From a virus: DNA of 40,088 bases. Of this stretch, positions 2,142 through 40,088 are shown one piece after another. Position 1 is the first letter of the stretch. Every line of letters begins with the position of its first letter. Below the pieces are notes generated by a model. That model saw nothing but the letters and a program-made list of their open reading frames with translations. It was not told the DNA's origin and made no database searches. The translations under genes and the position numbers were made by a program. Where the stretch lies: positions 1 through 40,088 of the IMG/VR virus record IMGVR_UViG_3300033571_008662; one strand, 5' to 3'.

Positions 2142-2614
2142 GAAGAGACTTTGCACAATTGCTATTCAATGAAATGGCAAATAATAAAGACATCTACCTT
2201 ATAACAGGAGACCTTGGTTATGGTCTATGGGATCAAGTTAGAGATACATATCCAGATAGATTCTATAACGTGGGATCTTCTGAGATGGCGATGTTAGGAA
2301 TGGGAATAGGTCTTGCTATGGAAGATAAGATACCTTTTGTATATTCTATAACTCCGTTTGCTATATATAGACCATTTGAAATGATTCGTAACTATTTAGA
2401 TCATGAGAATATCTGTGTTAATGTTATTGGTGGAGGAAGAGATCGCGACTACGGATATTTAGGATTTTCCCACTGGTCAGAAGATGATGTTAAAATCATG
2501 TCAAACTTTGATAATATCAAGACGTTTAAGCCTGTTGATCAAGATGAATTAGTGAATGCAATCAACTATAGTTTAACAAAACAATCTGCAGCTTACATTA
2601 ATTTAAAGAGATGA
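2138..2614 (+). CDS. transketolase-like protein, central (pyrimidine-binding) subunit
   Basis: 158 residues resembling the pyrimidine-binding domain of transketolase/DXPS enzymes. ITGDLGYGLW precedes FYNVGSSEMAMLGMGIGLAM, where the Glu in SSEMAM matches the conserved catalytic Glu that activates the ThDP aminopyrimidine ring (GIAEQNM in the family). PFAIYRPFEMIRN follows. It is shorter than usual and lacks the C-terminal transketolase domain (about 120 residues), as in some split forms. It should form a heteromer with the preceding subunit, to which it is coupled by a 4-bp overlap, and it overlaps the next gene in the same way. Confidence 0.8.
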   Translation: MRRDFAQLLFNEMANNKDIYLITGDLGYGLWDQVRDTYPDRFYNVGSSEMAMLGMGIGLAMEDKIPFVYSITPFAIYRPFEMIRNYLDHENICVNVIGGGRDRDYGYLGFSHWSEDDVKIMSNFDNIKTFKPVDQDELVNAINYSLTKQSAAYINLKR

Positions 2615-3405
2615 AGATATTAATTACAGGATCTAATGGAGTGATCGGAAAGTTCTTAACAAAGAAACTTAAAGATCATGATGTGTTTACTCCTAAAAGT
2701 TCTGCCGTTGATTTTAGTAACAAGGAGCAAGTAGATTACTTTTTTAAACACAATAATAATTTTGATTTAATAATTCATTGTGCAGTAAAGGGAGGCAGCA
2801 GACTTGCAAAAGATGACTGGGGTGCTATGGATACTAATATTAAAATGTATCTTAATCTACTTGATCATAGAGATAAGTATGGTAGATTTATAACCTTCGG
2901 ATCTGGTGCTGAAATTTATATGTCAAATGAACCTTATGGACTTAGTAAAAAAGCCATAACAAAATCCATGTCTGATAAAGACAACTTTTATAACATTAGG
3001 ATATATGGTTTGTTTGGAGACGGAGAACTAGAAACTAGATTCATAAGAGCAAGTCTTCAAAATTATATTAATAAGCAACCAATACAAATTAATGAAAACA
3101 AAATCATGGACTTCTTCTATATGGAAGACCTATGGACTTTGGTTAAGTACTACATTAATAATCCTAATCCACCCAAAGAAATAGATTGTTGTTACGGTGA
3201 ATATAAAAAAACTCTTAGAGGAATAGCTAATACAATTAACAGTTTAGGAGATTATGAAGTTGAAGTAGTGGCTCCTCCTCATATGTTTATGCCAACAAAA
3301 GAATATTTCGGTGATTCAACAATCTTAGAAAACTTGGAATTAAAATTAATAGGATTTGAACAAGCATTAAAATTAGAATATGAAAAATATAAGCTTTATA
3401 ATTAA
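2611..3405 (+). CDS. NAD(P)-dependent epimerase/dehydratase or reductase (extended SDR)
   Basis: 264 residues with the N-terminal dinucleotide motif GSNGVIGKF (GxxGxxG, residues 7-15) and the catalytic-type YGLSKK (YxxxK). A TFGSGAEIY segment supplies the usual Ser upstream. This is the fold of GDP-fucose synthase, RmlD and C4-epimerases; I cannot assign the substrate. Its position after RmlB, a methyltransferase and a transketolase pair suggests it reduces or epimerises the keto-sugar they make. The following gene starts 26 bp inside its 3' end. Confidence 0.8.
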   Translation: MKILITGSNGVIGKFLTKKLKDHDVFTPKSSAVDFSNKEQVDYFFKHNNNFDLIIHCAVKGGSRLAKDDWGAMDTNIKMYLNLLDHRDKYGRFITFGSGAEIYMSNEPYGLSKKAITKSMSDKDNFYNIRIYGLFGDGELETRFIRASLQNYINKQPIQINENKIMDFFYMEDLWTLVKYYINNPNPPKEIDCCYGEYKKTLRGIANTINSLGDYEVEVVAPPHMFMPTKEYFGDSTILENLELKLIGFEQALKLEYEKYKLYN

Positions 3406-4666
3406 TACATCTGTAAATACTAGAGATCATATAGAACTCTTAATGAAGTCTCTTCGTGATAACCTAGATGAAAAGGAGCATGAGATACTTGTCTTTATAG
3501 ATTCAGACAATGAAGATGTTTATGGGTATTTAAAGAATCTTAAGAAAGACTTCTTTGATCTTAAAATAATAACTCATAAACTTAATCCTTGTATAGGTTA
3601 TGCTAGAAATAATAATCTACTAGTTGAATTAGCTAAACACGATATCGTAAGCTATCTACAATCAGACATGGTAATTGGACCTCATTATGATACTAACGTA
3701 TTATCTTATTTAGAAGAGAATTGCATCTTATCAGCAACTAGAGTAGAACCACCACTACATGGATATTCAGATTACACTATAACACAAGACTTTGGAACAG
3801 ATCCAACTGTATTTGATATGGAAAGATGGAACAAGTATTCAGAGTCTATAAAATCAAATAGATCTGCAGAATACTTCTTTGCTCCAATAACATTTTATAA
3901 AAAAGTATGGCAAAGTATTGGAGGCTATGACACTAGGTTCAGAAGATCTAGAGAAGACTCTGATTTAGTTCAAAGATGCATACATGCTGGCATTAAGTTA
4001 TTACAAACATGGGAAGCAAATGTTTACCATTTTACTTGTGTAAGTTCTAGAGGAAAGAATTGGTTTGATCCTAATAGTCAGGAAGCTAAAAAGAGAGTGG
4101 AACTTCAGAAGATAGCAGATGGTATTGAACTCAGAAGGTTCATTAAGAAGTGGGGCAACTTTAATCACGGACAAGTTAAGCTCAACAAGTTAGATATTGA
4201 TCTTGTTATAAAGAGCGACATGAAGATTAGTCCAATGTTTCTAGTGCAAATAGAACCGTTCTTTTCCAGAGTCTGGCTTCAAACAAAAGAAGATAAAAAG
4301 CTTGTTGTAGATCTATATTCTACAGAGCATGATGTTGCCAATGAGCTTCTAAAATTCTCTAAGGAAGACTGGGAAGTGTCTAAAAAATTCTTTAGTATAA
4401 CAGACTATAATCAAGTCTATCAAATAGGAGAACCGCAGAATTATAATATAAAAATAGATCTGAACTTTAGTTCTATAGTAGATCCAGGTAAAGATTTATT
4501 CCTATCTAACCTGACGCGCTTGGGCGACATTATAGAGCCTTCTGAACCAGGAATATATGAACTAGGTGCAGCAAGAATTAATGTCCTGAATGTAGTCAGC
4601 CTAGCTCAGGATCAAGTTGTAGTTCAAAACCCACCATTCGATATGAATCTACTCACTATAGAGTAA
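3380..4666 (+). CDS. family 2 glycosyltransferase with C-terminal extension
   Basis: 428 residues. The first 230 or so form a GT-A fold: SFIINTSVNTRDHIELLMKSL near the start, a nucleotide-binding FIDSDN segment, ARNNNLL, and QSDMVIGP as the DxD-like metal/nucleotide motif, then a GGYDTRFRRSREDSDL segment typical of GT2 acceptor sites. The last 170 residues are a separate domain I do not recognise. It closes the left sugar operon and overlaps the SDR gene by 26 bp, so it probably transfers the sugar made upstream. The acceptor is unknown. Confidence 0.78.
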   Translation: MKNISFIINTSVNTRDHIELLMKSLRDNLDEKEHEILVFIDSDNEDVYGYLKNLKKDFFDLKIITHKLNPCIGYARNNNLLVELAKHDIVSYLQSDMVIGPHYDTNVLSYLEENCILSATRVEPPLHGYSDYTITQDFGTDPTVFDMERWNKYSESIKSNRSAEYFFAPITFYKKVWQSIGGYDTRFRRSREDSDLVQRCIHAGIKLLQTWEANVYHFTCVSSRGKNWFDPNSQEAKKRVELQKIADGIELRRFIKKWGNFNHGQVKLNKLDIDLVIKSDMKISPMFLVQIEPFFSRVWLQTKEDKKLVVDLYSTEHDVANELLKFSKEDWEVSKKFFSITDYNQVYQIGEPQNYNIKIDLNFSSIVDPGKDLFLSNLTRLGDIIEPSEPGIYELGAARINVLNVVSLAQDQVVVQNPPFDMNLLTIE

Positions 4667-26014: not shown

Positions 26015-26473
26015 TTATAGATCTTTTCTATAAAACCTACCTTGAATATTATCATTGTAAGAGTTTATGGCAAGCACTTCTAATTTCATTTGCCAATAAA
26101 CTTCATAGTAGGTTAGTTGTTTCTTAGTCTTACAGAATGTCAGGATCTCTCTAGTGAAGCACTTTTCACCCAGATTCTTTAAATCCTCTTTTATGTGCTT
26201 GTTGCTTCCCCAATAAGACTCCCAGTCAGACTCCTTTATCACCTTCTTCTTGCGTGGGACGCGCCCAGGCGATGACCATGCCGCGATCTCTTTCTTGGTT
26301 AATGTCTTTGTTAGATTATTGAAAAGAACCTTCTTTCCCACGTATATGCGGCCGTCACATATATTAGTAACTTTATATACGAATCCAATAGTGTCTTGAG
26401 GAAAATCTTCTAGGGTGTAAAACTCTTTAGTAGAGTCTAATTCTTTATATAACCACTTTTTAATAAAACCCAT
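26015..26473 (-). CDS. GIY-YIG endonuclease-like protein
   Basis: 152 residues. GFVYKVTNICDGRIYVGKKV is a classic GIY-YIG start (Y..Y-x10-12-YVGKK), followed by WESYWGSNKHIKEDL and a late EVYWQMKLEVL with the catalytic-position Glu (TYYEVYWQ). Stand-alone GIY-YIG proteins in T4-like phages are Seg-type homing or repair nucleases. The NUMOD-type DNA-binding tail is absent, so it might be a core nuclease. It ends 2 bp from the convergence terminator. Upstream ATATTTAT motif (26479-26486). Confidence 0.72.
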   Translation of the reverse strand: MGFIKKWLYKELDSTKEFYTLEDFPQDTIGFVYKVTNICDGRIYVGKKVLFNNLTKTLTKKEIAAWSSPGRVPRKKKVIKESDWESYWGSNKHIKEDLKNLGEKCFTREILTFCKTKKQLTYYEVYWQMKLEVLAINSYNDNIQGRFYRKDL

Positions 26474-26493: not shown

Positions 26494-26799
26494 CTATGAA
26501 TCCCATCTTATAATAAAGGTAACGTCTGTATTCTGTGGTACTGGATATGGCCTAGCTAATTTACCTACGACTAGAAGTTCATCCTTGTCATTATATAATC
26601 CTACCATTGAAGAGTAAGGATGAAAATCAGATCCGGTTACGGCATTTATATATGATCCTGAGGTTCCTAATTGTACGGCAGATGGGTTCTGAGTATAGTT
26701 AAAGTCATTCTCATTAACTAAGCATCTAACCTCATTTTGGTATATAGTACTTTCTGCTACAAAAGAAACTGTGTATGGTCTTGGTGTAATTATTGGCAT
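26494..26799 (-). CDS. small beta-rich virion-like protein
   Basis: 101 residues, beta-rich, starting MPIITPRPYTVSFVAESTIY, with LLVVGKLARPYPVPQNTDVT near the end. I recall proteins with this GLYNDxxELLVVGKLARP signature in marine T4-like phages, where they are carried as small structural or neck/tail accessory proteins; I cannot confirm it. Its late-type motif (26807-26814) overlaps the stop of the next gene upstream. Confidence 0.55.
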   Translation of the reverse strand: MPIITPRPYTVSFVAESTIYQNEVRCLVNENDFNYTQNPSAVQLGTSGSYINAVTGSDFHPYSSMVGLYNDKDELLVVGKLARPYPVPQNTDVTFIIRWDS

Positions 26800-26806
26800 A
26801 TCAAGA

Positions 26807-26814
26807 ATAAATAT
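26807..26814 (-). promoter_or_regulatory. late-type promoter motif (minus strand ATATTTAT)
   Basis: Minus-strand AATATTTATTCTTGATATG, 7 bp before ATG 26799. Confidence 0.45.
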
Positions 26815-29800
26815 TAGTTTTCCCTTCTTTCTTCAGGCTTATAGTGAGCTATTCTATCATGATCTATTGGGCTGGCCAATAATACCGCAGGTTTCAAATT
26901 TCCCTTTTTAGTTTCTTGATACATATAACTCATCCAAGTTTGTTCAAAAGGGCTTTGCCACGTAACATCTAAGAACATTTTCTGGTTTCCCTTCTTACCA
27001 CATATAGTTGGCCAGTTACAATAGTAGATCTCTCCTGTAGCATAACTTAATCCGTCTAATACTTCTATTTCATTGAACTTAGTTCTAGGACAATTTGGAT
27101 CTAAACCTTGCACTGGCAGTTTATCATAGTCAGGCCAAAATTCTGACCTTATATTTTGAGGAACGTTATACCAAGATACTTGGATATTATTGTCCATGTA
27201 AACTTCTGTGTAAGATAGTTTTAAGAAGTCTATATCTGTATCATGAATTATTTTTAAAACCCTATCATATAAGTTCGGAATGTGCCTTCTAAATCCATTT
27301 CTACAAAATGTAGTATCACTAGGAGAGTTTATTCCCATATCGTCTTCTAAGAATATATAGTAATCGCTATCCGATTCTTGAAAGTGTTGAGCCGCTCTAA
27401 ATCTACCGCCATTGATCCCAGTATTTTCATTTGTTATTATATGCTCAAAATTATACTTCTTACAAATTTCTGCATTAGCTATTCTAGCTTCATCGTTTGT
27501 AGAATTATCTATAAGTATATTTCTGGTATTAGTTATCCACTTCTCATGCTTCAACCATTTTTGAATAGTGTGTTCAACTTGATGCGGGAAGTTAAACGTA
27601 AGCATATAAAGACTGACCTTTAAATTATCTACATTTACAAATTTGTGTTTGCTTTTTATCCTATCTTCAGGAATAGGATCTAGTACTGCCGTATTATTTA
27701 TAACGGCTTCTACAAATTCTTGAATATGCCCATTTATATTTATTTTTGAAGTTCTAAATATCTCAGGGTATTTCTTTGCTAGAATAGAAAACAGGCTTTC
27801 CTCTGTTCCCATTAAGTTTTCATTCAGACTATTATCTAGCAAGTGCCAATAGTAACTATTAACATCAGAGATAACTTCTTTTTTTCCTCCAAATAATCCA
27901 CCTCTACTAATCCACTCAACAACTCCACCGGCATATTCATTTAATTTTTCCCAATTAAAACCATGCACTTCTCCGATACCTTTATTATAATATGGATATG
28001 GATATTGAATAAATAAGAATGGATCTAGATATGATGGTAGCTTATCAAAGAAATCAGATTCTATTAATAAATTATAGTTTATAGTATTACTAATTCCAGC
28101 ATCTAACCAAATAAAATTCTCTGTTCTAAATGGATTATAAATGCTAGCATCATGAAGTATCGCAAGTTTAGACATTACAATAGGATTATACCACTCAAGA
28201 GATCCTTGTGGAGAATCAGCTAACCAGTTTGCTTGATTAATCCAGTCTTCAGACTTTCTTATTTCTTGTGTCCTATCCCAAAAAGGCCCATACAGATTTT
28301 TAACATCTTCTAATTCAACTATTTTTATTCTTGTATTACGTTTATTTCTTTTGGTCCATACTAACTCTTCTAATTCTTTAGGTATAAATAAAAACAGATT
28401 TTGATCTATTTCTAGGAATTTTTCAAAGCACATTAAATAATGATCAAATGATCTATTTTGTTTTCCTATATTCCATAATCCAGACACTATCGTTAAATCT
28501 GATTTAGGTCTATTACTTTCCTTTTTAAATTCTGTTAATAAAGATAACTCTCCTCTTTTTGAATTTGTTTTTTTAATAGCTAAAAAATTATTTCCAAAAA
28601 ACCATTCATGATCTTTTATAATATCAATAACGTCTTGTTTTCTATCTGCGTATAAATTGGTTTCATCTCCGCCGCCACCTAAGTCTTCTATAATATAATA
28701 CCCGTCTTTTTTAACTCTATCAAAAAAGTTTTTTAAAGTTTGAAGTTGTGCACTTGCTTTATGCAATCCGTCATCAATTATAATATCATAAGTGTTTTCT
28801 TTTAGATACGAATCGCATTCGCTTTTATCTCGAGAATCACAAATGAATGTTGAAATTCTATCTTCTGAAAATTTACAATCGTCGGCGATATCGATGCCAT
28901 GTATTTCTGCTTTTGGAAAATAATCTTTCCAGACCCTTAAAGATCCACCTTGTATATAGTGATCATAGTAAATTGATTTCGTTTGTATAAAATTTCCTAT
29001 TACATGATTATCTAAACTACCTATTCCTATTTCTAATAAAGCTAATCTTTCAGATCTAAGATCATCAAATATGTATTCATACATTGGAGTATATCCACTT
29101 ATAGATTTATCTGTGCCATATTTTTTTATATAATAGTCCAAAGATTCTTCTGATTCTATATTTGCTCTATCATATTTTTCTATACTTAAAGATACTATTT
29201 TTTCATTTTTTTTGATTATAGCTAATTGATCACATACTTTTAGTATTTCATAGTTAATAGACCTTTCTGAGAAGAAGTCTACTATAGCAGCTTTCACTCC
29301 TGGTAAATCGTTTCTATCATAATCATGAAAACAAATGTATCCGCCGTTTTCTACTCTATCATATATTTTAATTAGACTGTCATATATTGAATTATAAAAA
29401 TCTCCATCAAGAAAAGCAAATGATATTTTTTCTGGGAGTCTTTCATTTGGTATATCTTTAAACCAAGATTTAGTAATAATTGGAAGCTCTAAGCCATTCT
29501 GTACAAAATTCTTTGTTAATATATCTTCCGTAGTATTTAAAGTACCCTCTCTCCAACCAGTGCCCTCTTCATATTTTGTTAACTCTGGAAGTCCTTCAAA
29601 TGAATCATACACATATAGCTTCTTACTAGATTCTGATTGTTCAATTGATTTTCTTAAATACTTACTAGACTCTCCTACAAAGCAACCTAGTTCTACAACA
29701 TCGCCGTCTATATTATTATCTATACAATCTAATAAATAAAGAACAAGATAATCTAATTGATCATCATTTATTATAGTAGGCTCTAATTTTATATTCTCAA

Positions 29801-29834
29801 AACCCCTTACTTTTTTGAATAGCTTTTTTTTCAT
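26814..29834 (-). CDS. four-domain methyltransferase/glycosyltransferase fusion
   Basis: 1006 residues with four separable domains. About 1-215: TylF/MycF-type O-methyltransferase (VELGCFVGESS, FLDGDFYNS). About 230-430: a second class I SAM methyltransferase (LLEIGIGS, IDDGLHKA). About 445-735: HtrL/YibB (WlaTC) family glycosyltransferase-like (TIVSGLWNIG, YNPIVMSKLAILHDA). About 740-1006: family 2 glycosyltransferase (VSLYMLTFNFPHQ, FLEDDMGINSP holding the DxD). Two transferases and two methyltransferases on one chain could build and cap a glycan. Last gene of the large minus-strand glycan operon, 9 bp after the upstream gene. Confidence 0.8.
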   Translation of the reverse strand: MKKKLFKKVRGFENIKLEPTIINDDQLDYLVLYLLDCIDNNIDGDVVELGCFVGESSKYLRKSIEQSESSKKLYVYDSFEGLPELTKYEEGTGWREGTLNTTEDILTKNFVQNGLELPIITKSWFKDIPNERLPEKISFAFLDGDFYNSIYDSLIKIYDRVENGGYICFHDYDRNDLPGVKAAIVDFFSERSINYEILKVCDQLAIIKKNEKIVSLSIEKYDRANIESEESLDYYIKKYGTDKSISGYTPMYEYIFDDLRSERLALLEIGIGSLDNHVIGNFIQTKSIYYDHYIQGGSLRVWKDYFPKAEIHGIDIADDCKFSEDRISTFICDSRDKSECDSYLKENTYDIIIDDGLHKASAQLQTLKNFFDRVKKDGYYIIEDLGGGGDETNLYADRKQDVIDIIKDHEWFFGNNFLAIKKTNSKRGELSLLTEFKKESNRPKSDLTIVSGLWNIGKQNRSFDHYLMCFEKFLEIDQNLFLFIPKELEELVWTKRNKRNTRIKIVELEDVKNLYGPFWDRTQEIRKSEDWINQANWLADSPQGSLEWYNPIVMSKLAILHDASIYNPFRTENFIWLDAGISNTINYNLLIESDFFDKLPSYLDPFLFIQYPYPYYNKGIGEVHGFNWEKLNEYAGGVVEWISRGGLFGGKKEVISDVNSYYWHLLDNSLNENLMGTEESLFSILAKKYPEIFRTSKININGHIQEFVEAVINNTAVLDPIPEDRIKSKHKFVNVDNLKVSLYMLTFNFPHQVEHTIQKWLKHEKWITNTRNILIDNSTNDEARIANAEICKKYNFEHIITNENTGINGGRFRAAQHFQESDSDYYIFLEDDMGINSPSDTTFCRNGFRRHIPNLYDRVLKIIHDTDIDFLKLSYTEVYMDNNIQVSWYNVPQNIRSEFWPDYDKLPVQGLDPNCPRTKFNEIEVLDGLSYATGEIYYCNWPTICGKKGNQKMFLDVTWQSPFEQTWMSYMYQETKKGNLKPAVLLASPIDHDRIAHYKPEERREN

Positions 29835-29843
29835 ATTAATATT

Positions 29844-30860
29844 TTAAAATATCGGCCATCTATTTTCTGACTTTAAAATTTGTATTTTTTCTTTATTTAT
29901 TTCATAAAACTGTTCTATAGTATCTGCTGGTATGAACCCACTCCCATCTGCGAAGTTCATAGACTTTGGAATAAAGTATCTATCTGTAAAATATATTTTT
30001 ATGTCATAATATTTTTTACTAAAGTCTAAAACTTTAATGTCACAGTACTTGTTAGCTACTCCTACAGGAATATAATCACAAAGCATATACCCACCACATT
30101 CAGAACACCCTCTAAAAATGTTATTTGAATAACTAATTTTACAACATTTATTCCAAACATCAAAATATTTTTTAACAGTGTCTACAGAATCAAAATTATA
30201 ATATCTAAAAGGACCTTCTGTTATTGGTAGATTACGTATTATAGGATCTGTATTATGCGTATCATATTTATTATTTAGCCTATCCATTATAATAGATGCT
30301 AATTGTAAACCAGAGTAACTTGCAGATCCCATTGCTGCGGTATCATGAAATTTTCCTAACTCTATTTTTAATTCTTCTTTATGACATGCCTTCATTGAAT
30401 TTATTGGAGTATCAAATTCACTCCAGAATTCTTCTTCAGATATTTCTCCAGAAACTATTTTATCATATTTTAAATTTGCATCTGGATCATGCATTATAAA
30501 CTTAGTGTATCCTAGTTCTGCTATTCTTGGTAAAGAGAATCTATTTAAAGAATAAGAAAAAAAGTTTTTATTATATAAATTATCTCTATAATCTTTTCCA
30601 TAAGTTTCTTGATTAGTAGGTATATATTCTATATCTATAGACCATGGATAATCTTTTCTTACTTCATGAATATTAATGACACCTATTATTTTATTTGTGC
30701 TACTTCTTAATTCATCAAAATCAGACGGTAAGTCAGTTAAAATAATATAATCCATGGTATCACTATATCCCATAGAAATACTTTCTAAAAAATTTTGTTT
30801 GACCCTATCTCTATAACTAGGTCCTAATCCCCAAGTAACAACTACAGGTTTATTTTTCAT
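29844..30860 (-). CDS. putative GT-A glycosyltransferase (paralogue of 32528)
   Basis: 338 residues. FSYSLNRFSLPRIAELGYTKFI leads to HDPDANLKY, a DxD-like metal motif (residues 125-129), the usual geometry of a GT-A enzyme. A C-terminal FRGCSECGGYMLCDY cysteine segment could be a zinc site. The gene at 32528 has the same order with TDTNINF at nearly the same residue number, so they look like diverged duplicates. Overlaps the carbamoyltransferase gene by 11 bp. Confidence 0.55.
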   Translation of the reverse strand: MKNKPVVVTWGLGPSYRDRVKQNFLESISMGYSDTMDYIILTDLPSDFDELRSSTNKIIGVINIHEVRKDYPWSIDIEYIPTNQETYGKDYRDNLYNKNFFSYSLNRFSLPRIAELGYTKFIMHDPDANLKYDKIVSGEISEEEFWSEFDTPINSMKACHKEELKIELGKFHDTAAMGSASYSGLQLASIIMDRLNNKYDTHNTDPIIRNLPITEGPFRYYNFDSVDTVKKYFDVWNKCCKISYSNNIFRGCSECGGYMLCDYIPVGVANKYCDIKVLDFSKKYYDIKIYFTDRYFIPKSMNFADGSGFIPADTIEQFYEINKEKIQILKSENRWPIF

Positions 30861-32535
30861 ATCTTTTATAATCTTCTTTTCTTATATAATAATCTTCTAA
30901 TAATAAACAATCTAACTGTGTCTTGGTATAAATTTCAAATGCGTCTGCATATGTAGATAGTATAGGTTTTCCATTAACATTAAAAGACGTATTTAGTAAA
31001 ACTCCTACGCCTGTTAATTTTTCAAATTCAGTAAGTAGGTTATATAAAAATTCATTTTGATCTTTTGTTACTGTTTGTACTCTAGCAGTTCCATCAACAT
31101 GAGTAATAGCGGCTAACTTTTCTCTCCACTCTTCTCTAACTGTCGGGCAGAAACTCATCCACCTAGATTCTCCTTCCCATTCAAAATATTTACTTACGTC
31201 TTCTAATCTAACAACCGGTGCAAATGGTCTATACCACTCTCTATTTTTAACTTTAGTATTTAATACATCTTTCATTTCTGGTATGGATGGGTTACATAAT
31301 ATACTTCTATGTCCTAATGCTCTAGGACCATGCTCTGATTGTCCTTTAACTACGCCAATTATTTTACCACTTAATAAATCTTGAACTACTATCGAAGGAT
31401 CATATTGTTCAACCGGATGATATGCCTCGTCTCTTTCCATTAATCTCCTAACATTATTATGCTCACAAACTCTTTGGACTAGTAAATTTTTATCTAATAT
31501 AGGAAGCCCTTTATAAGTTATATCAATAGCATTTTCAGGCTTTAAATGTTTTAACATTAATCCTAAAGCTATTCCGCAATCATTTGGATTAGGTCCTACA
31601 AAAACTTCTTTATTAAACTCTTGTTTTATTCTAGTATTCAATATAATATTTAAAGCACAACCTCCAGTTATACAAATAGGAAGATCTGGATACTCTTCGA
31701 AATATGGTTTTGCTACTTCTATAAAGCACTCTTCAAAAGCTCTTTGTGCTGTAGCCGCAACATCATAAGCTAACTGTCCTTCAAATCTATTATTTATATC
31801 AAATGAGATTCCTATTTTTTCACCTAGAGTATTTAATTTACCAACATAATCATTTTCATGCCCGTCTGGATCATCTTTAAAAAATGTTATGAATGCATCT
31901 AACCACTCTTCTTTCCATTTACCGTAGGAAACTAATCCCATTATTTTTCCTGGCCATACTAAGTTACCATCTGAAACATTATCTATGGTTATGTCTTTTA
32001 GATATTGCCCGAATATCATATACGCAAATCCTAAGTTATAATATAGGTGAGGTCTATTATATGTTGGATTTAAAAGTTGAGCTAATCTATTAAGCTCTTG
32101 ACCTCTTACGGCATGGTATACATTAAACTCTCCGTCATCTCCGCCTCCATCGAAAGAGAATACTATAGCTTCTTTAAATGGCGATTGATAAAAACAACCA
32201 GCCGCATGAGATTCGTGATGAGTTCCATGAATATAGTTTTTAGCTTTTATCATGTTGTAAGTTTGAAAAAGCTGATAGGGACCTGTAAAAGATTCTCCTA
32301 TAAAATCTGTAGATGAAAAATAACAATTTTCAAATTCTTCTATTCCATACTCTTTATAAACCCAATCTAATATCTGCTCAAGACAAATTATAATATGTCT
32401 AGGCATTTTATATTGAGACATCCCAACATTTTTACTATTGATGAATCTTTCAAATTCTACAACACATAGGATTTCACCATTATTTTCTATAACCAAACCT
32501 CCATTATGAGATCCGTGATAACTTATATTAGCCAT
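30850..32535 (-). CDS. carbamoyltransferase, NodU/CmcH/TobZ-like
   Basis: 561 residues. N-terminal ASKHA-type domain with HGTHHESHAAGC (metal-binding His residues) and VFSFDGGGDDGEF; C-terminal GVVKGQSEHGPRALGHRSIL and LLNTSFNVNGKPIL, the hallmarks of the family. Uses carbamoyl phosphate (via carbamoyl-AMP) to carbamoylate a hydroxyl, often of a sugar. Full length for the family. Overlaps its neighbours on both sides, so it belongs to the glycan operon. Carbamoylation of the glycan, or of modified DNA as suspected in other phages, are both open. Confidence 0.87.
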   Translation of the reverse strand: MANISYHGSHNGGLVIENNGEILCVVEFERFINSKNVGMSQYKMPRHIIICLEQILDWVYKEYGIEEFENCYFSSTDFIGESFTGPYQLFQTYNMIKAKNYIHGTHHESHAAGCFYQSPFKEAIVFSFDGGGDDGEFNVYHAVRGQELNRLAQLLNPTYNRPHLYYNLGFAYMIFGQYLKDITIDNVSDGNLVWPGKIMGLVSYGKWKEEWLDAFITFFKDDPDGHENDYVGKLNTLGEKIGISFDINNRFEGQLAYDVAATAQRAFEECFIEVAKPYFEEYPDLPICITGGCALNIILNTRIKQEFNKEVFVGPNPNDCGIALGLMLKHLKPENAIDITYKGLPILDKNLLVQRVCEHNNVRRLMERDEAYHPVEQYDPSIVVQDLLSGKIIGVVKGQSEHGPRALGHRSILCNPSIPEMKDVLNTKVKNREWYRPFAPVVRLEDVSKYFEWEGESRWMSFCPTVREEWREKLAAITHVDGTARVQTVTKDQNEFLYNLLTEFEKLTGVGVLLNTSFNVNGKPILSTYADAFEIYTKTQLDCLLLEDYYIRKEDYKRYEK

Positions 32536-33406
32536 TAGATAAATTGTTTATTTTTAAAAATTCGTTATAATTAATGTGATCCATAATACCATCAACAGAT
32601 CCTCCTGCTTTCCAAAACCTTTCATGAATTTGGTTATGTATAACAGTAAATATTCTACTTGTTGAATGATGATCTCTTTCAGTAAGTTTAAATACATTAT
32701 AGATAGGAGCTAATATATATTCATCGTGGTATACGTATGATCCGGCGAATCTTTTCATATAATCGTTTTCATACAAGTGCAGGATTACATTATCCCAAAC
32801 AGTAAAAAACTTATATAGATTATCTAAATCACTAAAAACAAAAAACCTTGCCGCTGCGTCTAAAACACGTACGAGTTCTGAAGGTACTAGATCATATTTT
32901 TCTTTTAGGTAGTTCTTAACTAGACCCATGTCCTTTTCATTAATGCTTGTATCCCATTCTGATACTGCATTATAAATTGTATTTTTAGTATCAAATAAAT
33001 TATTATTAAATAATTCAAAATTTATATTAGTATCTGTACACATTATAGATACATTAGGTATTCCATGTTTATAAGCTTGTAATAAATGAAATCTCATCAA
33101 TGAAAAAGAATATAAATACCCCGATTCTACAAACTGTTTAGCATAATCATTTTTATCTACGGATTCTAATAAAGCCTCATATTTTTCTATGTGAGGAAAC
33201 TCTTCATAAAAGTCTTTTAATTCATTGACAATTAGGTTTTTCCTTTTTATATTATCAAAATACTTTTTATCATCTGTTATTATAAAGTAAAATAAATTGT
33301 CATCATCGAAGTAGTGCTCTGTTAATTGACGGACCGCACTCTCTCGATAACTTTCTCCGGCACACGAATAGCAAATTGCTAATTTTTCTTTAATTATTGA
33401 GTTCAT
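32528..33406 (-). CDS. putative GT-A glycosyltransferase (paralogue of 29844)
   Basis: 292 residues. YSFSLMRFHLLQAYKHGIPNVS leads to MCTDTNINFELF, in the same place as HDPDANLKY of the 29844 product (around residue 125). It lacks a strict DxD, having DTN, so activity is uncertain. Overlaps the carbamoyltransferase by 8 bp and the GT-B gene by 17 bp. Confidence 0.5.
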   Translation of the reverse strand: MNSIIKEKLAICYSCAGESYRESAVRQLTEHYFDDDNLFYFIITDDKKYFDNIKRKNLIVNELKDFYEEFPHIEKYEALLESVDKNDYAKQFVESGYLYSFSLMRFHLLQAYKHGIPNVSIMCTDTNINFELFNNNLFDTKNTIYNAVSEWDTSINEKDMGLVKNYLKEKYDLVPSELVRVLDAAARFFVFSDLDNLYKFFTVWDNVILHLYENDYMKRFAGSYVYHDEYILAPIYNVFKLTERDHHSTSRIFTVIHNQIHERFWKAGGSVDGIMDHINYNEFLKINNLSNG

Positions 33407-34322
33407 GTATTTTAACTAGTTTAAAAAATAAATCAATTATATAATCAGGTTTAGAATAAGAATCAAAATACTGCTGCCCATTAGAAGAGATATTTTTTAA
33501 TTTATCATAATCGTCTATAATAAGTTCTAATGCATTTATATATTCATCTGCGATATCTTCTATTTTAGAATCAGAATATGTAAACCAAGCATTTGAACAA
33601 ACTCGTCCTCCATTAATATAATGGTAGTCTTGTATAAGTGGATTATAAAACTGCGTCTTTAACTCAGATCTTAGGCATGGTATTCCTAACCCCATAGATT
33701 CTAAATCTCGTAAACAAAATTCACCATTTCCATTAAAAGATAACGATACTCTATATTCATTTATCTTTTTATAATATTCCAAACCGTGATACCCTGTTGA
33801 GTTATCTAGTACTTCAAATAATTCATGTTTTGATAGTAGCTCTGACAGTGGAGTTCTTGTTCCATATATAGCGCCTATAAAAATAGCTTTTCTTATCTTT
33901 TGTTCTGGATTATATTCTACTCTTACTTGATCTAGATAATCATAACTATTAGGAACTCCTAATGGATATTGGAAATTAGAATGGTCTATTCCATAAGTTT
34001 CTTTTATCTGGTTAGAATTTAAGTTCATTCCTAGACCTCCTATATATTGAACTATTTTATATTTTTCCCATCCTAAACCAGGTAAAAATGTATTCATTCC
34101 TCTGTCCCAAAAAGACATTAAAATAGTTTTATTATTTTCATCATTTATAATTTGAAAATTAGACATCCCACCAGGAGAACTTTGATATGATCCTTCTGGT
34201 TGTCGGTGCTTTATAGAGTGCTCAGGAAATTTTAAATTAAATAAATCAAATATAGTATTGTAGATATATTTAAAATAAGGATTCCCGGCTCCTTCTTTAT
34301 CAAAGAAAAAAGTTAAATTCAT
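33390..34322 (-). CDS. GT-B glycosyltransferase-like protein
   Basis: 310 residues. KAIFIGAIYGTRTPLSELL marks the start of a C-terminal Rossmann half, and NGEFCLRDLESMGLGIPCLRSE matches the family 4/GT1 ExxxxxxxE/G-P donor site motif (E..LESMGLG.P). The N-terminal half is short, as in many phage GT-Bs. Overlaps the RmlD-like gene by 4 bp. Acts with the other transferases of the operon. Confidence 0.68.
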   Translation of the reverse strand: MNLTFFFDKEGAGNPYFKYIYNTIFDLFNLKFPEHSIKHRQPEGSYQSSPGGMSNFQIINDENNKTILMSFWDRGMNTFLPGLGWEKYKIVQYIGGLGMNLNSNQIKETYGIDHSNFQYPLGVPNSYDYLDQVRVEYNPEQKIRKAIFIGAIYGTRTPLSELLSKHELFEVLDNSTGYHGLEYYKKINEYRVSLSFNGNGEFCLRDLESMGLGIPCLRSELKTQFYNPLIQDYHYINGGRVCSNAWFTYSDSKIEDIADEYINALELIIDDYDKLKNISSNGQQYFDSYSKPDYIIDLFFKLVKIHELNN

Positions 34323-34996
34323 AAAATAGAATTTAGTTTATCTAAGTTCATTGTTATATCACTAGGTACATTATTTGGTCTATAACCTGGCATGATATCT
34401 GGATTTGTTTGTTTAGCTAATTGATATATTGTTTTTTTCTCTGTTCCTACATTATAAACTCCATTAGCATTTTTATTTATTAATTGTATAATTAAATTAG
34501 CTATAACATCAACATAATCAAAATTTCCATATTGATCAACCCAACCTTTATTATATGGAAATGGTTTTGGTTTAAATGAACATCTACATATTAAATGATC
34601 ATTATTATTAAACATAACATATTCATCTGCTAATAATTTTGAATATGAATAAAAATTTGGAGCCGGTATAGCTAAACCATTTTCATCAATATCAGAATCT
34701 GAATCAGCATAAACATGATCTGTAGATATGTGAATTAATTTTTTATTTAATATTTTACAAAGATTTGATAACTTAATAATAAAATGATAATTGATAGAAT
34801 ATATACTCTCTCTATCTGTTGAGTATGTATCTGTATTAGCTAAACAATTTAGTATAATATCATAATGTCCTAAATAAAAAGATAGTGAGTCATTAATAAA
34901 ATCAATATTGTCTTTTTTTCTAGAAATATAATCCCACCCTGTTTGCCTTACAATCTCACTTCCTAATAAACCATCTCCTAGTACTAATATTTTCAT
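34319..34996 (-). CDS. RmlD-like sugar nucleotide reductase (SDR)
   Basis: 225 residues. GDGLLGSEIVR (GxxGxxG), HISTDHVYAD and YSYSKLLAD (YxxxK) are all present in the right order, as in dTDP-4-dehydrorhamnose reductase. It is shorter than RmlD (about 300), with a truncated C-terminal sugar domain. With the E1-like dehydrase next to it, it would reduce the 4-keto group of a (di)deoxysugar. 4-bp overlap with both neighbours. Confidence 0.78.
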   Translation of the reverse strand: MKILVLGDGLLGSEIVRQTGWDYISRKKDNIDFINDSLSFYLGHYDIILNCLANTDTYSTDRESIYSINYHFIIKLSNLCKILNKKLIHISTDHVYADSDSDIDENGLAIPAPNFYSYSKLLADEYVMFNNNDHLICRCSFKPKPFPYNKGWVDQYGNFDYVDVIANLIIQLINKNANGVYNVGTEKKTIYQLAKQTNPDIMPGYRPNNVPSDITMNLDKLNSIL

Positions 34997-36279
34997 TTAA
35001 ATTTAGTTATAATATCATTTATATAATCAAATACCGGTTCTGTATAATGTGGAGCCGCTCCTATAAAAAATACCTTGTCAAGTACTTTATTTGCTTCCGG
35101 ATATAAAGTATAGTCATCAAGTTTAGAATAACCTGGGTGTAATAAGATATTGCCTGCAAAATAATTTCTAGTTTGTATTTTATTTGCCTCTAGATATTCT
35201 ACTAGTCTATGTTTTAATCCTGGTTCGTCACATATAAATGGAGTACCAAACCAACATGGATCCGCTTTAGGTAATACGTCTGGTATTCTTAGACCGGGTA
35301 TATTATCAGTGAATATTTTAGATAAAGTATTTCTAGAAACTTTTCTATTAGCTTCAATTTCATCTAATTTATCAAGTTGGACTAAACCAATCGCACCTTG
35401 TAAATCTAATGGTTTTAAATTATATCCCATTTCACTAAACACATACTTATGATCAATAATGCCATCATAGTTTTCTAACCATTTATCAAATCTATTTCCG
35501 CATGTTCCACATGAAAGTAAATTAGCAGATCCTATACAATAACAATCTCTTCCCCACCATGAAAGGCTTACGAATAAAGACTTTAGCTCATCGTCATTAG
35601 TGCATATCATTCCACCTTCACCAGTAGAAATATGATGAGCTGGATAAAATGAATTAGAAAAAGCTACATAGTAGTCTGTTATATAATTACCATTCCATGC
35701 ACTCCCTAAACTATCACAATTATCTCCTATAAGTTTAAGATCATATTTGTCTGCTAAAGCTTTAAGCTTATCCATATCAGGAGGATTTCCCAATACCGGT
35801 GATACGAAAATACCTTTTGTTCTAGAAGTTATTTTCTCTTCTATTCTACTTACATCAAAGTTAAGCGTTTGCCATTCAATATCAACAAAAACAGCTTTTA
35901 GTTTATTTTGATATAGAACAGAAACTGTTGTAGCAAACCCTACCGGAGACACTATAATCTCATCATCATCTGCCCAGTTAAATCTTTTCTTTAAAGCCGC
36001 TATTAAAACTAGATTAGCAGAACTTCCAGAATTAACCATGTGAGAATGCTTAACATTAAACTTTTTACTAAAAGCATTTTCAAACTTGTAAACTTTTTCT
36101 CCTGCAGTTATCCACTTTCCATTTAGAAATGTATCTATTGCGGCTTCTACTTCTTTATTATCCCAATAAGGTCCGGAATAGTAAATAGGAGTTTTTCCTG
36201 GTTCAAATACTTTTGAATTATAAATGTAGGGCGCTACATGATTTCCTACTAAACTTTGTATATCGTTTTTATTTATCAC
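34993..36279 (-). CDS. rfbH: CDP-4-keto-6-deoxyglucose-3-dehydrase (E1/RfbH-like)
   Basis: 428 residues of the DegT/DnrJ/StrS fold. SNSFYPAHHISTGEGGMI has His216 where aminotransferases have the PLP-lysine, the feature of E1/RfbH and ColD dehydrases. Cysteines C188, C246, C248 and C257 or C260 match the [2Fe-2S] ligand spacing of E1 (C-x57-C-x1-C-x7-C; here x57, x1, then x8 or x11). Removes the C3 hydroxyl, leading to 3,6-dideoxyhexoses. The family length (about 437) agrees. Flanked by RmlD-like and GT60-like genes. The matching E3 reductase was not seen. Confidence 0.85.
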   Translation of the reverse strand: MINKNDIQSLVGNHVAPYIYNSKVFEPGKTPIYYSGPYWDNKEVEAAIDTFLNGKWITAGEKVYKFENAFSKKFNVKHSHMVNSGSSANLVLIAALKKRFNWADDDEIIVSPVGFATTVSVLYQNKLKAVFVDIEWQTLNFDVSRIEEKITSRTKGIFVSPVLGNPPDMDKLKALADKYDLKLIGDNCDSLGSAWNGNYITDYYVAFSNSFYPAHHISTGEGGMICTNDDELKSLFVSLSWWGRDCYCIGSANLLSCGTCGNRFDKWLENYDGIIDHKYVFSEMGYNLKPLDLQGAIGLVQLDKLDEIEANRKVSRNTLSKIFTDNIPGLRIPDVLPKADPCWFGTPFICDEPGLKHRLVEYLEANKIQTRNYFAGNILLHPGYSKLDDYTLYPEANKVLDKVFFIGAAPHYTEPVFDYINDIITKFK

Positions 36280-37550
36280 TAGTCTATTTTGTGTTCTATT
36301 CTTTCTACCCAGCCGTCTTCTTCTGTGTATCCCCAGAATACTACTCTAGCAGGCGTTTTGTCTGTTAAGAAATACTCTTCATAATGAATGTGGTTTCCAT
36401 TAGTCATGAAATTCTGCAATTCATAATCTGTTATAAACTTACTATTTAGTGAATTACCTTGATCATCATCAAAGGCGACTAATATGTGCTTATAATTATT
36501 CCTAGGGAAATCGTGTCTATATATTGTTACTAAGTGATAAAATGATTCCATGAATGATTTTTCCCAAAGTTGATCATCTTGAATATGTGGATTAGGAGGA
36601 TATTGATTATCTAGAGTATACTTTTGAACAGATCTTGTTTTAAAATTAACGCCTGCGTACTTCTCGTAGTCCCTAACTGTTCTGACTGTTCCCAGGCCGT
36701 ATCCAGTCAAATCCACCGAGCTATCCTGTTCAGACCCTAGTAAGACTCTTATTCTTTTCCTAGCGGTCTCTTGCTTGTTATACCAATCATTGCCTAGTTT
36801 AACATCATCATCCCACTTTAATTTTCCAGCTCTTTCTTCACGCATAGTTGAATGCCACACTACTATTTTATTCGGGTGAAACATATCATAGCCATGAGTG
36901 TATGATCTGACTGTTAGATTAATCTCTTCACCTGAGAAATATATATTAGGATCATGTCTTACATCTCTTGCCCATTCTGATCTTGCGAAGTCAAAATGTC
37001 CACATAAGAATCTAGACATCGGAGGTTCAGTCATATTCTCGTAGCCATGTAATAAACCAGGTCTAATGAATATAGTTCCATGAGGATAGAAACAAACAAA
37101 TTGAGATTGCCATGGTTCCATTGATCTACCACCAGGTTCATTGAATGGATCATATAGAGGAGAGTATCCTGCTATGATTGGCTTATATCCTTTAGCTTCT
37201 AAATCAAGATGCATTTGTATTAATGTCTCATCCCAATCCTGAGCAAATCTATGATGCGAATCTAGTTGGCATACATAGTCTTCATCAGTTAATAACTGCT
37301 CATTAATTATAGCTCTTGCCCAAGGAAGACCTTTAGCTTCACTATATAAGCACTCATAAATTTTAAATCTTTTATCTGTTTTATATTCTGTTAGATCATC
37401 AAATCCGTCTTCTGGATGGTACTGCCTACATATACCGAAGTGTATACGATTAGGATACTTTGCTTTGTCTAATGCGTCTTTAATTGTTGGAATTAATTCA
37501 GGATCACGGTATGCCGGTAAGTGAACTAATATTGTAGGTTTCTTATTCAT
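36279..37550 (-). CDS. GT60-type polypeptide GlcNAc-transferase homologue (copy 1)
   Basis: 423 residues. N-terminal PTILVHLPAYRDPELIPTI, then QLDSHHRFAQDWDETLI (DSHHRF with the metal/nucleotide Asp), GHFDFARSEW, and HDPNIYFSGEEINLTVRSYT (GEE), the order of Skp1/mucin-type GlcNAc-transferases of the PF11397 (GlcNAc) family. A 100-residue C-terminal extension (RVVFWGYTEEDGWVERIEHK) is shared with copy 2. Such enzymes add GlcNAc to Ser/Thr or hydroxyproline of proteins. Overlaps copy 2 by 8 bp. Confidence 0.82.
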   Translation of the reverse strand: MNKKPTILVHLPAYRDPELIPTIKDALDKAKYPNRIHFGICRQYHPEDGFDDLTEYKTDKRFKIYECLYSEAKGLPWARAIINEQLLTDEDYVCQLDSHHRFAQDWDETLIQMHLDLEAKGYKPIIAGYSPLYDPFNEPGGRSMEPWQSQFVCFYPHGTIFIRPGLLHGYENMTEPPMSRFLCGHFDFARSEWARDVRHDPNIYFSGEEINLTVRSYTHGYDMFHPNKIVVWHSTMREERAGKLKWDDDVKLGNDWYNKQETARKRIRVLLGSEQDSSVDLTGYGLGTVRTVRDYEKYAGVNFKTRSVQKYTLDNQYPPNPHIQDDQLWEKSFMESFYHLVTIYRHDFPRNNYKHILVAFDDDQGNSLNSKFITDYELQNFMTNGNHIHYEEYFLTDKTPARVVFWGYTEEDGWVERIEHKID

Positions 37551-38802
37551 ATGATATAACTTGTTCTATTCTTTCCATCCACCCTTTAGATTCGGTGTGA
37601 GGCCAAACTCTCCATGAGTATGGCTTATCTGGATGTTCAAATGTTCTCCAAATATGGATAAATTGATCATCTTTATTTTCTGTAAATAGTGCTAATACTT
37701 CACTCTTTTCTGCATCTTTTCTATAAATATCATTTCCTTTATCATCTAGAAATGCTATAGCAAAAAAGTCGTAGTCTTGCTCAATAAGTGATCCTTTATA
37801 AATATCTATGCAATATTTTCTTATGTGAGCTAAACCAGATTCATAGTCATTTTTGATTGGAGGAAACTCACCATTCTTTGCCTCTATATGTATTTGTTGT
37901 GTAGAGAATTTTAAACCTGCGTACTTTTCATATTCTTCGAATGTTCTCTCTTCACCAAAATAATTTTCTACTCCCAATGATTTTCTTGTACAAGGACTGC
38001 AAGTACCTTCTACACCCATTAACTTTCTATATCTTGCATAAGATGCTTGATCTCTTTGTGCCCAGTCTTGACTATCGTCCCAATGTTTTTTCTTGCCATC
38101 TCTAGTATATTCATGCCAAACTATAGCTCTATGAGGAGAGAACAAATCATAACCAAATGTAAATGCTCTAGCAGCTAAAGAAGATTCTTCGCCATGAAAA
38201 TATAAATGCTCATCGTAAGGTACTTCTTCAACAAACTTACCTAAAGTAAATATAAAGTGTGCCGATATAAATCTAGTAGGAAAAGGCTCTGTTAATTCTT
38301 TCCATTCAGTTACTCCATGAGGCTCTAAGAATATAACTCCTGAAGGCATAAACCTTTGTATGTTTAAACTCCACACTTCTTCATTTCTACCTTCTGGATC
38401 GTTCTTTGGAAAGTATCCTGGTATATATGCTGATAGCAAAGGCTTTTTGTTTCCTTTAGACTGAAAATAGTGAATATAATCTTTTAGTGTAGTATCCCAA
38501 CCTTTACTAAATCTATGGTGAGAATCTAACTGAAAGTAATAATCCTCTCCTTTATATTGTTCTTGAATTCTTTTTCTAATCCAACAAACACCTTTAGCAT
38601 CTTTATAGTTATAGTCTAAGATAGTAAATCTAGAATCATTTTTATATTCATCTAAATTATCCCAAGTATCTTCTTCAGAGTGCTGCCAACCGATACAAAC
38701 GTATAGATTATCAGGTTCAGAACAATTATTTAAGAGATCTTTTAAAGTAGGAAGAAGTTCGGGATCTCTGTATGCTGCGATCGAAACGAATATTTTAGCC
38801 AT
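37543..38802 (-). CDS. GT60-type polypeptide GlcNAc-transferase homologue (copy 2)
   Basis: 419 residues, same architecture as copy 1: KIFVSIAAYRDPELLPTLKD, FQLDSHHRFSKGWDTTLKD, SAHFIFTLGKF and HLYFHGEESSLAARAFTFG. C-terminal WRVWPHTESKGWMERIEQ aligns with copy 1's end. First gene of the minus-strand glycan operon; its start is in AAGTTATGGC, the GTTATG context of plus-strand genes. It lies 49 bp from the stop of the repeat-rich protein, its probable acceptor. Confidence 0.83.
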   Translation of the reverse strand: MAKIFVSIAAYRDPELLPTLKDLLNNCSEPDNLYVCIGWQHSEEDTWDNLDEYKNDSRFTILDYNYKDAKGVCWIRKRIQEQYKGEDYYFQLDSHHRFSKGWDTTLKDYIHYFQSKGNKKPLLSAYIPGYFPKNDPEGRNEEVWSLNIQRFMPSGVIFLEPHGVTEWKELTEPFPTRFISAHFIFTLGKFVEEVPYDEHLYFHGEESSLAARAFTFGYDLFSPHRAIVWHEYTRDGKKKHWDDSQDWAQRDQASYARYRKLMGVEGTCSPCTRKSLGVENYFGEERTFEEYEKYAGLKFSTQQIHIEAKNGEFPPIKNDYESGLAHIRKYCIDIYKGSLIEQDYDFFAIAFLDDKGNDIYRKDAEKSEVLALFTENKDDQFIHIWRTFEHPDKPYSWRVWPHTESKGWMERIEQVISYE

Positions 38803-38851
38803 AACTTAATATACAAAATTTATTTCAAATAAAAAAATTTATTTTTAATTA
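38803..38851 (-). promoter_or_regulatory. possible promoter of the glycan operon
   Basis: Minus strand TTTGAAATAAATTTTGTATATT: an AT-rich tract with a TTTG-like box and TAAATTTTG, 15-20 bp before ATG 38802. Weak match to the Bacteroidetes pattern (one extra base in the -7). Confidence 0.35.
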
Positions 38852-40087
38852 TTAACAAGTAGTATAAGCACCTGCTGATACGTTTAGTTTTAATTCTATA
38901 GTAATATTAGAGTTTACTGTTACTTGATAAGGAGTTGTATCATATCCACAATTGGTAGTTGATCCACCGGCACATCCAGCTACACCAAATGTTTGATCTG
39001 TGGCACCTGCAATTTGAGCTCCTATAGTAAGTTCGGTTCCTGCTGTTACATTAGTAATAGTTCCTGTTAAAGCAGTTGTACCACAATCTGGTCCTGTTAT
39101 ACCTGACGCTAATGTAGTCTTAGTATGGGGGCCGCTACCTAACCTATAAACTACAGATGTAACACCCCCAACACTTCTTGTAGCAGAGTTTCCATGTCTA
39201 ACTGTTACTGTGTATTTAGCAGTATTACTTGGAGTAACAGAGACGCTAGGAGTAACACTACGAGTTACAGATATGCTAGGTGTTACAGATATACTAGGAG
39301 TTACAGATACGCTAGGAGTTACAGATATACTAGGAGTTACAGATACGCTAGGTGTAACTGATATCGATGGAGTTACAGATACACTAGGAGTAACAGAGAC
39401 GCTAGGAGTTACACTTCTAGTTACTGAAATACTAGGAGTAACAGATACACTAGGAGTTACAGATACGCTAGGAGTTACTGAAGGAACAACTGTACAATCT
39501 AGAACATCTATTATTAATCCATTAGAGTTAACTTGAACTGCCCAATTACTACTAGATCTATTAAATTTAAACCATCCTTCTGAACTTATAGTTGGAGCCC
39601 AATGATTAGCAAGAATCAAATTAGGATTTGAATATAATTGCTGACCAACTGTAGGAACAGAATATACCGGGCTTTGATATATAGTAGCTCCAGTTGGAGT
39701 TCCAGATGCGCAAGCTTCAAAGAATCCTACGAAATCGCTAGTAGATGTAGTAAATGCTATAGCAGGTACTGATGTACTAGGAGTTACAGTTGGAGTTACA
39801 CTAGGAGTTTTTGATATACTAGGTGTTACGCTAGGAGTTCTAGACACGCTAGGAGTTCTAGATATACTAGGCGTTACAGAAATACTAGGAGTTACACTTG
39901 GAGTTACAGATATACTAGGAGTTCTAGATATAGAAGGTGTAACCGATACGCTAGGAGTTACACTTGGAGTTACGGATATGCTTGGAGTTACAGATACACT
40001 AGGCGTTACAGAAATACTAGGAGTTACACTAGAAGTAACAGATACGCTAGGAGTTCTAGATATACTAGGTGTAACTGAAATGCTAGG
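38852..40087 (-). CDS. Ser/Thr/Pro-repeat fibre-like or surface protein (5' partial)
   Basis: 411 residues visible, open to the right edge; the GTG at 39847 is internal. Two repeat blocks of degenerate TPSVSVTPSISVTPS units (about residues 1-103 and 205-290 of the visible part) flank a globular domain (FEACASGTPTG to SNWAVQVNSNGLIIDVLDC). A C-terminal domain of about 120 residues begins KYTVTVRHGNSATRSVGG and is Cys-containing, ending AGAYTTC. The mucin-like repeats are ideal O-glycosylation substrates, and two polypeptide GlcNAc-transferase genes follow. Probably a virion fibre or decoration protein; similar repeats occur in uncultured marine phages. Confidence 0.75.
   Translation of the reverse strand, partial: PSISVTPSISRTPSVSVTSSVTPSISVTPSVSVTPSISVTPSVTPSVSVTPSISRTPSISVTPSVTPSISVTPSISRTPSVSRTPSVTPSISKTPSVTPTVTPSTSVPAIAFTTSTSDFVGFFEACASGTPTGATIYQSPVYSVPTVGQQLYSNPNLILANHWAPTISSEGWFKFNRSSSNWAVQVNSNGLIIDVLDCTVVPSVTPSVSVTPSVSVTPSISVTRSVTPSVSVTPSVSVTPSISVTPSVSVTPSISVTPSVSVTPSISVTPSISVTRSVTPSVSVTPSNTAKYTVTVRHGNSATRSVGGVTSVVYRLGSGPHTKTTLASGITGPDCGTTALTGTITNVTAGTELTIGAQIAGATDQTFGVAGCAGGSTTNCGYDTTPYQVTVNSNITIELKLNVSAGAYTTC
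39225..39480 (-). repeat. mucin-like repeat block in coding DNA
   Basis: Tandem degenerate units coding PSVSVTPS/PSISVTPS, with GAGTTACAGATACGCTAG-like DNA on the plus strand. Codon variation (TCT/AGT, GTA/GTT) shows the repeat is kept at protein level, not by simple DNA slippage. Confidence 0.8.
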
Positions 40088-40088
40088 A
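39770..40088 (-). repeat. second mucin-like repeat block, reaching the window edge
   Basis: Same TPSVSVTPS, TPSISRTPS and TSSVTP type units, with Arg-containing variants (SRTPS). It continues beyond the right edge. Confidence 0.75.

Follow-up and report, generated by a model that had tools for sequence, protein, structure and literature searches.

A putative phage-encoded mucin-type O-glycosylation system built around GT60-like enzymes and Ser/Thr-Pro repeat proteins of the tail-fibre region

Introduction

The GT27 polypeptide GalNAc-transferases, of which human GalNAc-T2 is an example, are the starters of mucin O-glycans. A comparable task is performed by the polypeptide alpha-GlcNAc-transferases of CAZy family GT60, which share the Pfam domain PF11397 and which, in T. 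cruzi and Dictyostelium, start the mucin-type O-glycan chains of domains rich in Ser and Thr (PMC8724618). These are eukaryotic enzymes whose sugar and acceptor are known, whereas for the phage homologues described below we can only infer both; unlike their eukaryotic counterparts, the phage GT60s mostly occur as tandem pairs within a tail-gene operon.

Virus-encoded machinery for protein glycosylation has been described in Paramecium bursaria Chlorella virus 1 (cited in PMC5852040), but this is a eukaryotic virus and the modified protein is the major capsid protein Vp54, not Ser/Thr-Pro tail repeats. Among bacteriophages, Xanthomonas phage XacN1 is reported to possess at least two virion glycoproteins, which the main text of that paper does not name and for which its authors suggest phage-encoded transferases (PMC5852040). 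We find that XacN1 ORF334 is a GT60 protein (37% identical). Both XacN1 and Stenotrophomonas phage RAS14 resemble the system described here in encoding a GT60 (36–37% identical), a carbamoyltransferase and YibB/GT2 homologues, but differ in having a single GT60, a short Ser/Thr-Pro stretch confined to a giant neighbouring protein, and no E1 or RmlD. In XacN1 a short Ser/Thr-Pro stretch is found in ORF325, which adjoins the baseplate wedge genes. Pairing of GT60 with repeat proteins is undescribed in either phage, and full-text searches of open-licence papers found no description of such pairing, none of PF11397 or GT60 together with phage, and none of VgrG glycosylation. Mucin-type initiation by GT60-like enzymes is already known; what would be new is the phage-tail setting and perhaps the spikes of type VI secretion systems (T6SS).

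The sugar operon

The window, that is, the whole stretch of DNA analysed, is a linear 40-kb (40,088-nucleotide) fragment from IMG/VR. The part missing from it is available from L005, a near-identical contig of 162 kb whose GT60a is 99% identical. A tightly packed series of minus-strand genes runs from 40087 down to 26494 and is followed by a gene for a GIY-YIG protein. The initial annotation had placed the system at 34319–40088; its core does lie there, but the operon reaches beyond, down to 26494. The features, with the genes of the series in their order, are as follows.

38852..40087, minus strand: TPS-repeat mucin-like protein, C-terminal 411 aa, 5' end lost at the contig end (PHROG 15511)
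39824..40075, minus strand: TPSxSx repeat block, proposed glycan acceptor (repeat count, tandem-repeat detection)
39251..39478, minus strand: second TPSxSx repeat block, proposed glycan acceptor (repeat count, tandem-repeat detection)
38855..39223, minus strand: Cys-containing C-terminal domain, approximate limits (identity with the second L005 repeat protein)
37543..38802, minus strand: GT60a, polypeptide-glycosyltransferase-like, with DSH and GEE motifs (PF11397)
36279..37550, minus strand: GT60b, tandem homologue of GT60a, 37% identical (PF11397)
34993..36279, minus strand: E1/RfbH-like 3-dehydrase, DegT family, His for Lys, Cys cluster
34319..34996, minus strand: RmlD-like short SDR, 225 aa (profile match)
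33390..34322, minus strand: 310-aa putative glycosyltransferase (no family match)
32528..33406, minus strand: 292-aa protein, possible GT-A (no family match)
30850..32535, minus strand: NodU/CmcH-type carbamoyltransferase (profile match)
29844..30860, minus strand: 338-aa protein, possible GT-A (no family match)
26814..29834, minus strand: 1006-aa enzyme with TylF methyltransferase, second methyltransferase, HtrL_YibB and GT2-like parts
26494..26799, minus strand: 101-aa protein homologous to the C-terminal part of gp105-type proteins
26015..26473, minus strand: GIY-YIG protein, homologue of immuto gp100, marking the far edge of the tail-fibre slot, outside the system
2..4666, plus strand: end of a second sugar cluster (4,6-dehydratase, methyltransferase, split transketolase, SDR, GT2-like), of which further parts lie at L284:5304-19960 and L285:1-7526
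L005:7801-9951: full-length repeat protein, 716 aa, on the near-identical contig

The GT60 proteins

That the operon encodes two tandem homologues of polypeptide GlcNAc-transferases was proposed in the initial annotation and is borne out by profile searches: GT60a matches PF11397 with 233 bits (E=8.6e-69) and GT60b with 178 bits (E=4.5e-52), both above the Pfam curated cut-off of 21 bits, and the two genes overlap by 8 bp. In an alignment of 28 phage homologues, residues D93-S94-H95, R97, G204 and E206 are among those that are invariant.

The expectation of a polypeptide-glycosyltransferase fold was likewise upheld. The AlphaFold model of GT60a (mean pLDDT 92.5) has as its best 36 PDB matches GT27 polypeptide GalNAc-transferases exclusively, with E values from 6.6e-11, the next match after these being S. 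aureus TarS. The alignments to GT27 are long and gapped, with TM-scores of only ~0.5 and 12–16% identity, and the relation is therefore one of kinship of fold. Sequence searches of the PDB with GT60 (phmmer, profile) gave no match, and membership of GT27 is undetectable at that level. The model thus predicts for GT60a the fold of the GalNAc-transferase catalytic domain (at TM ~0.5), and both proteins can be classed, on the predicted fold and the DSH found in 28 homologues, as GT-A enzymes with a DxH metal motif.

In contig G011 (109634-111787, around locus L051), both GT60 genes are read as a single 856-aa open frame, which hints that the tandem pair has become naturally fused there. Hydroxyproline, also considered as an acceptor, is unlikely, because prolyl hydroxylases are usually missing (one was found in only 1 of 14 contigs).

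Repeat proteins and their pairing with GT60 in phages

The long TPS-repeat protein is indeed encoded directly upstream of the GT60 pair. Its reading frame in the window is open at the contig end and contains 30 TPS motifs with a dominant spacing of six residues, whilst the full-length L005 protein has 67 TPS motifs and a combined Ser, Thr and Pro content of 51%. A second repeat protein of 409 aa is encoded upstream in L005, and the two share a Cys-containing C-terminal domain of ~122 aa (43% identity). With its long Ser/Thr/Pro-rich tandem repeats, the 716-aa protein has, as judged from its sequence, the make-up of a mucin-type acceptor. The possibility that the TPS repeats are mere low-complexity sequence was ruled out by lineage-matched and same-genome controls.

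The pairing of repeat and GT60 genes recurs widely. In clade I, defined as GT60 loci with at least 64% identity (L005–L020), a strict repeat ORF is found 28–238 bp upstream on the same strand; in L021 the contig ends 121 codons upstream and only PTPT repeats are visible. Repeat ORFs also lie directly upstream of GT60 genes in L045, L057 and L072, where the enzymes are only 38–47% identical to GT60a, and in L074, L109 and L170 the genes alternate (repeat-GT60-repeat-GT60), an arrangement that would fit one substrate gene per enzyme. GT60s that directly adjoin repeats fall into 18 clusters at 95% identity and five at 60%.

In several GT60-positive phages the repeat gene is far from GT60. All seven GT60-positive contigs of at least 66 kb that lack an adjacent repeat gene carry Ser/Thr-Pro repeat ORFs (10 or more tandem [ST]P motifs) elsewhere, compared with none of six GT60-negative contigs of 79–173 kb (p ~0.0006, exact count), the latter having been picked by a shared structural gene and all belonging to one lineage, which weakens the comparison. 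Adding two shorter repeat-less GT60-positive contigs and that of L005 gives 8/10 against 0/6 (p ~0.0035). When contigs were gathered by their repeats, 12 of 40 encoded PF11397; the 12 are a floor, as off-target matches and many fragments are included, and most of the 28 contigs that lacked PF11397 are fragments. A scan seeded with the structural gene found PF11397 in 2 of 29 contigs, both of which carry repeat proteins. The initial annotation had suggested a search for the same gene order in other phages: the GT60/repeat pairing does recur, but the set of tailoring enzymes around it varies.

Bacterial loci and VgrG

Relatives of PF11397 are found in many bacterial genomes. Most bacterial GT60 loci (61 of 80) have no repeat gene nearby. 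Using a criterion of six or more motifs, a repeat ORF was nevertheless found within ~8 kb of GT60 in 7 of 22 bacterial loci but in none of 40 control stretches from the same genomes (p=3e-4). VgrG, which forms the T6SS spike, is the repeat protein concerned in Burkholderiaceae; Pfam identified it in five genomes, and homology did so at seven more loci. All 12 GT60-linked VgrGs have repetitive C-terminal tails, mostly rich in Ser/Thr and Pro. In the five genomes, the VgrGs adjacent to GT60 have long Ser/Thr-Pro tails, with repeats such as TPTPTP, PPPSETP, PEPSTPE and TPDETPD, whilst 12 other readable VgrGs do not, although for some of these the very end of the C-terminus lies outside the short locus. 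The VgrG genes lie ~4 kb from GT60, as follows.

L391:13075-15564
L401:13281-16541
L406:13114-15489
L390:14616-16964
L409:13072-15714

On this sequence evidence, VgrG is an independent setting in which GT60 is coupled to Ser/Thr-Pro repeats on a phage-tail-like spike. Because the pairing recurs in divergent phages and in bacteria, chance can be excluded.

A Thr/Pro-repeat protein with a Crassvirus muzzle C-terminal domain (PF25729) is encoded near a GT60 gene at L350:7502-9265; the contig is labelled as a Planctomycetaceae MAG but may be phage.

Core and tailoring enzymes

Across 66 loci, the YibB/GT2 half of the 1006-aa enzyme accompanies GT60 in 40, including XacN1 and RAS14, with 36–67% identity outside L005. 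The carbamoyltransferase is present in 14, an E1-like protein in five and an RmlD-like protein in one. By gene content, then, the conserved core comprises GT60, the YibB/GT2 enzyme and the repeat protein, with E1, RmlD and the carbamoyltransferase as variable tailoring functions. The idea that the full set of sugar enzymes forms one conserved system does not survive this comparison: E1, RmlD and TylF occur in hardly any other genome and the carbamoyltransferase is occasional.

Several of the individual assignments in the initial annotation hold. The E1-like dehydrase has 3bcx and 3bb8 as its best PDB matches. His stands where the PLP-binding lysine would be (YPAHHIST), and the Cys residues that ligate the [2Fe-2S] cluster are conserved, so that it keeps the PMP/[2Fe-2S] dehydrase signature of E1/RfbH, the CDP-4-keto-6-deoxyglucose-3-dehydrase. 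Unlike E1/RfbH, however, it scores 361 bits against the NCBIfam RfbH equivalog, short of the 423-bit cut-off, and its pathway partners on the contig most closely resemble dehydratases of dTDP-glucose. The carbamoyltransferase and RmlD-like assignments are likewise upheld, the latter protein matching only the first half of the profile. For the 1006-aa protein, described as having four domains, a TylF-type methyltransferase and HtrL_YibB are matched, and the second methyltransferase and GT2 matches are weak. The labels ‘GT-B’ and ‘GT-A-like’ had been given by eye to three further proteins (33390-34322, 32528-33406 and 29844-30860), which in profile searches match no curated family above cut-off.

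A second sugar cluster lies on the same phage contig at ~85–108 kb, its end being visible in the window. It encodes a 4,6-dehydratase closest to dTDP-glucose dehydratases, a split transketolase, a GT2-GT10 fusion, a C-methyltransferase-like protein, a nucleotidyltransferase, UDP-galactopyranose mutase, a second E1 that passes the RfbH cut-off (458 bits) and several glycosyltransferases. This cluster could supply unusual sugars to the operon; possibly it serves to modify surface polysaccharide.

The last suggestion can be extended to the operon itself, which might modify host LPS or capsule, for example to block superinfection, with the repeat protein a chance neighbour or a bare flexible stalk. 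Such is the published reading of other jumbo-phage sugar clusters (PMC7824862), and E1, the carbamoyltransferase, UDP-galactopyranose mutase and dehydratases are the kind of enzyme characteristically encoded in loci for surface polysaccharides. It explains neither the GT27-like fold nor the way in which GT60 tracks Ser/Thr-Pro repeats across divergent phages and VgrG tails, however, and we consider it unlikely.

The tail-fibre slot

The L005 genes upstream of the repeat proteins match, in order, gp110, gp109, gp107 (74%) and gp106 (46%) of Flavobacterium phage immuto, and the GIY-YIG gene of the window matches immuto gp100 (43%). Between these flanks immuto has gp105, one annotated tail fibre and two tail spikes. 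Judged by gene order, the repeat proteins and sugar operon occupy an immuto-type tail-fibre/spike slot. The GIY-YIG protein belongs to PHROG 447, which, like immuto gp100, is labelled ‘NAD synthetase’; this looks like a misannotation.

Proteins of the gp105 type are matched in their N-terminal part by residues 1–190 of the 409-aa repeat protein, and in their C-terminal part by the 101-aa protein at the other end of the operon. The simplest reading of these matches is that one structural gene has been split, its N-terminal half gaining repeats and its C-terminal half being left beyond the operon. Synteny suggests that gp105-type proteins are virion proteins with a structural role; their predicted structure is poor (pLDDT 65), and this low-confidence model has no PDB match. 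The GT60s of L057–L062 are only 34–38% identical to GT60a, and these loci still carry a homologue (48–52%) of the 101-aa piece.

The initial annotation had the phage glycosylating its own fibre, perhaps to mask or bind receptors. The repeat genes do lie in a tail-fibre slot and are coupled to GT60 in many genomes, the fibre glycan itself being the part that is deduced. GT60 might instead glycosylate some other virion protein, leaving the TPS repeats as an unmodified, Pro-rich extended stalk, as the distant location of the repeat gene in some GT60-positive contigs would allow; the immediate adjacency and alternating arrays seen in several clusters, together with the VgrG-tail coupling, make this quite improbable.

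A proposed pathway

We think it probable that the locus directs mucin-type O-glycosylation of tail proteins made by the phage itself. GT60a and GT60b, acting in the host cytoplasm as retaining GT-A enzymes that bind metal via DSH, would place the first sugar, taken from a nucleotide sugar, on Ser/Thr of the TPSxSx repeats in tail proteins that have just been synthesized. Lengthening of the glycan would then fall to the YibB/GT2 enzyme together with a variable complement of transferases, E1, the reductase and the methyl- and carbamoyltransferases providing unusual, capped sugars. The tail-fibre apparatus would thereby carry a rigid stalk or brush covered in glycan, with receptor contact, protease shielding and evasion of host surface defences as candidate roles. 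We infer the transfer reaction, the acceptor residues, the identity of the sugar, the division of labour between GT60a and GT60b, and the biological role. An experimental hint in favour of the pathway comes from XacN1, whose GT60 is 37% identical and whose virions reportedly contain glycoproteins.

The chances seem evenly balanced that GT60 forms part of a general prokaryotic ‘tail mucin’ system, in which dedicated mucin-type transferases dress Ser/Thr-Pro repeats on phage and T6SS VgrG spikes and fibres, the phage copies being modular cassettes in which the core that initiates the glycan is conserved and the tailoring enzymes are exchangeable.

If the proposed pathway is correct, phages have enzymes of their own for producing mucin-type glycoproteins and deploy these on the tail, with which they contact the host. 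A function could then be assigned to a PHROG whose sole annotation is ‘glycosyltransferase’ and to a repeat family that at present has none. The pathway would also tie the HtrL_YibB domain to protein glycosylation and help to explain the glycoproteins reported from phage virions, XacN1 being one example, and T6SS spikes would be expected to be glycosylated.

That the sugar genes serve hypermodification of phage DNA is scarcely credible: large phage sugar clusters can glycosylate DNA, phage YerA41 is reported to carry a ~1-kDa substitution on thymidine (PMC9023294), and the near-identical contig has a weak thymidylate-synthase-like match, but such genes are missing from 7 of 10 GT60-positive contigs and DNA hypermodification would predict no tie to repeat proteins. 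In contig G001, the weak thymidylate-synthase-like match at 126227-126865 contains internal stop codons and represents a divergent or interrupted gene.
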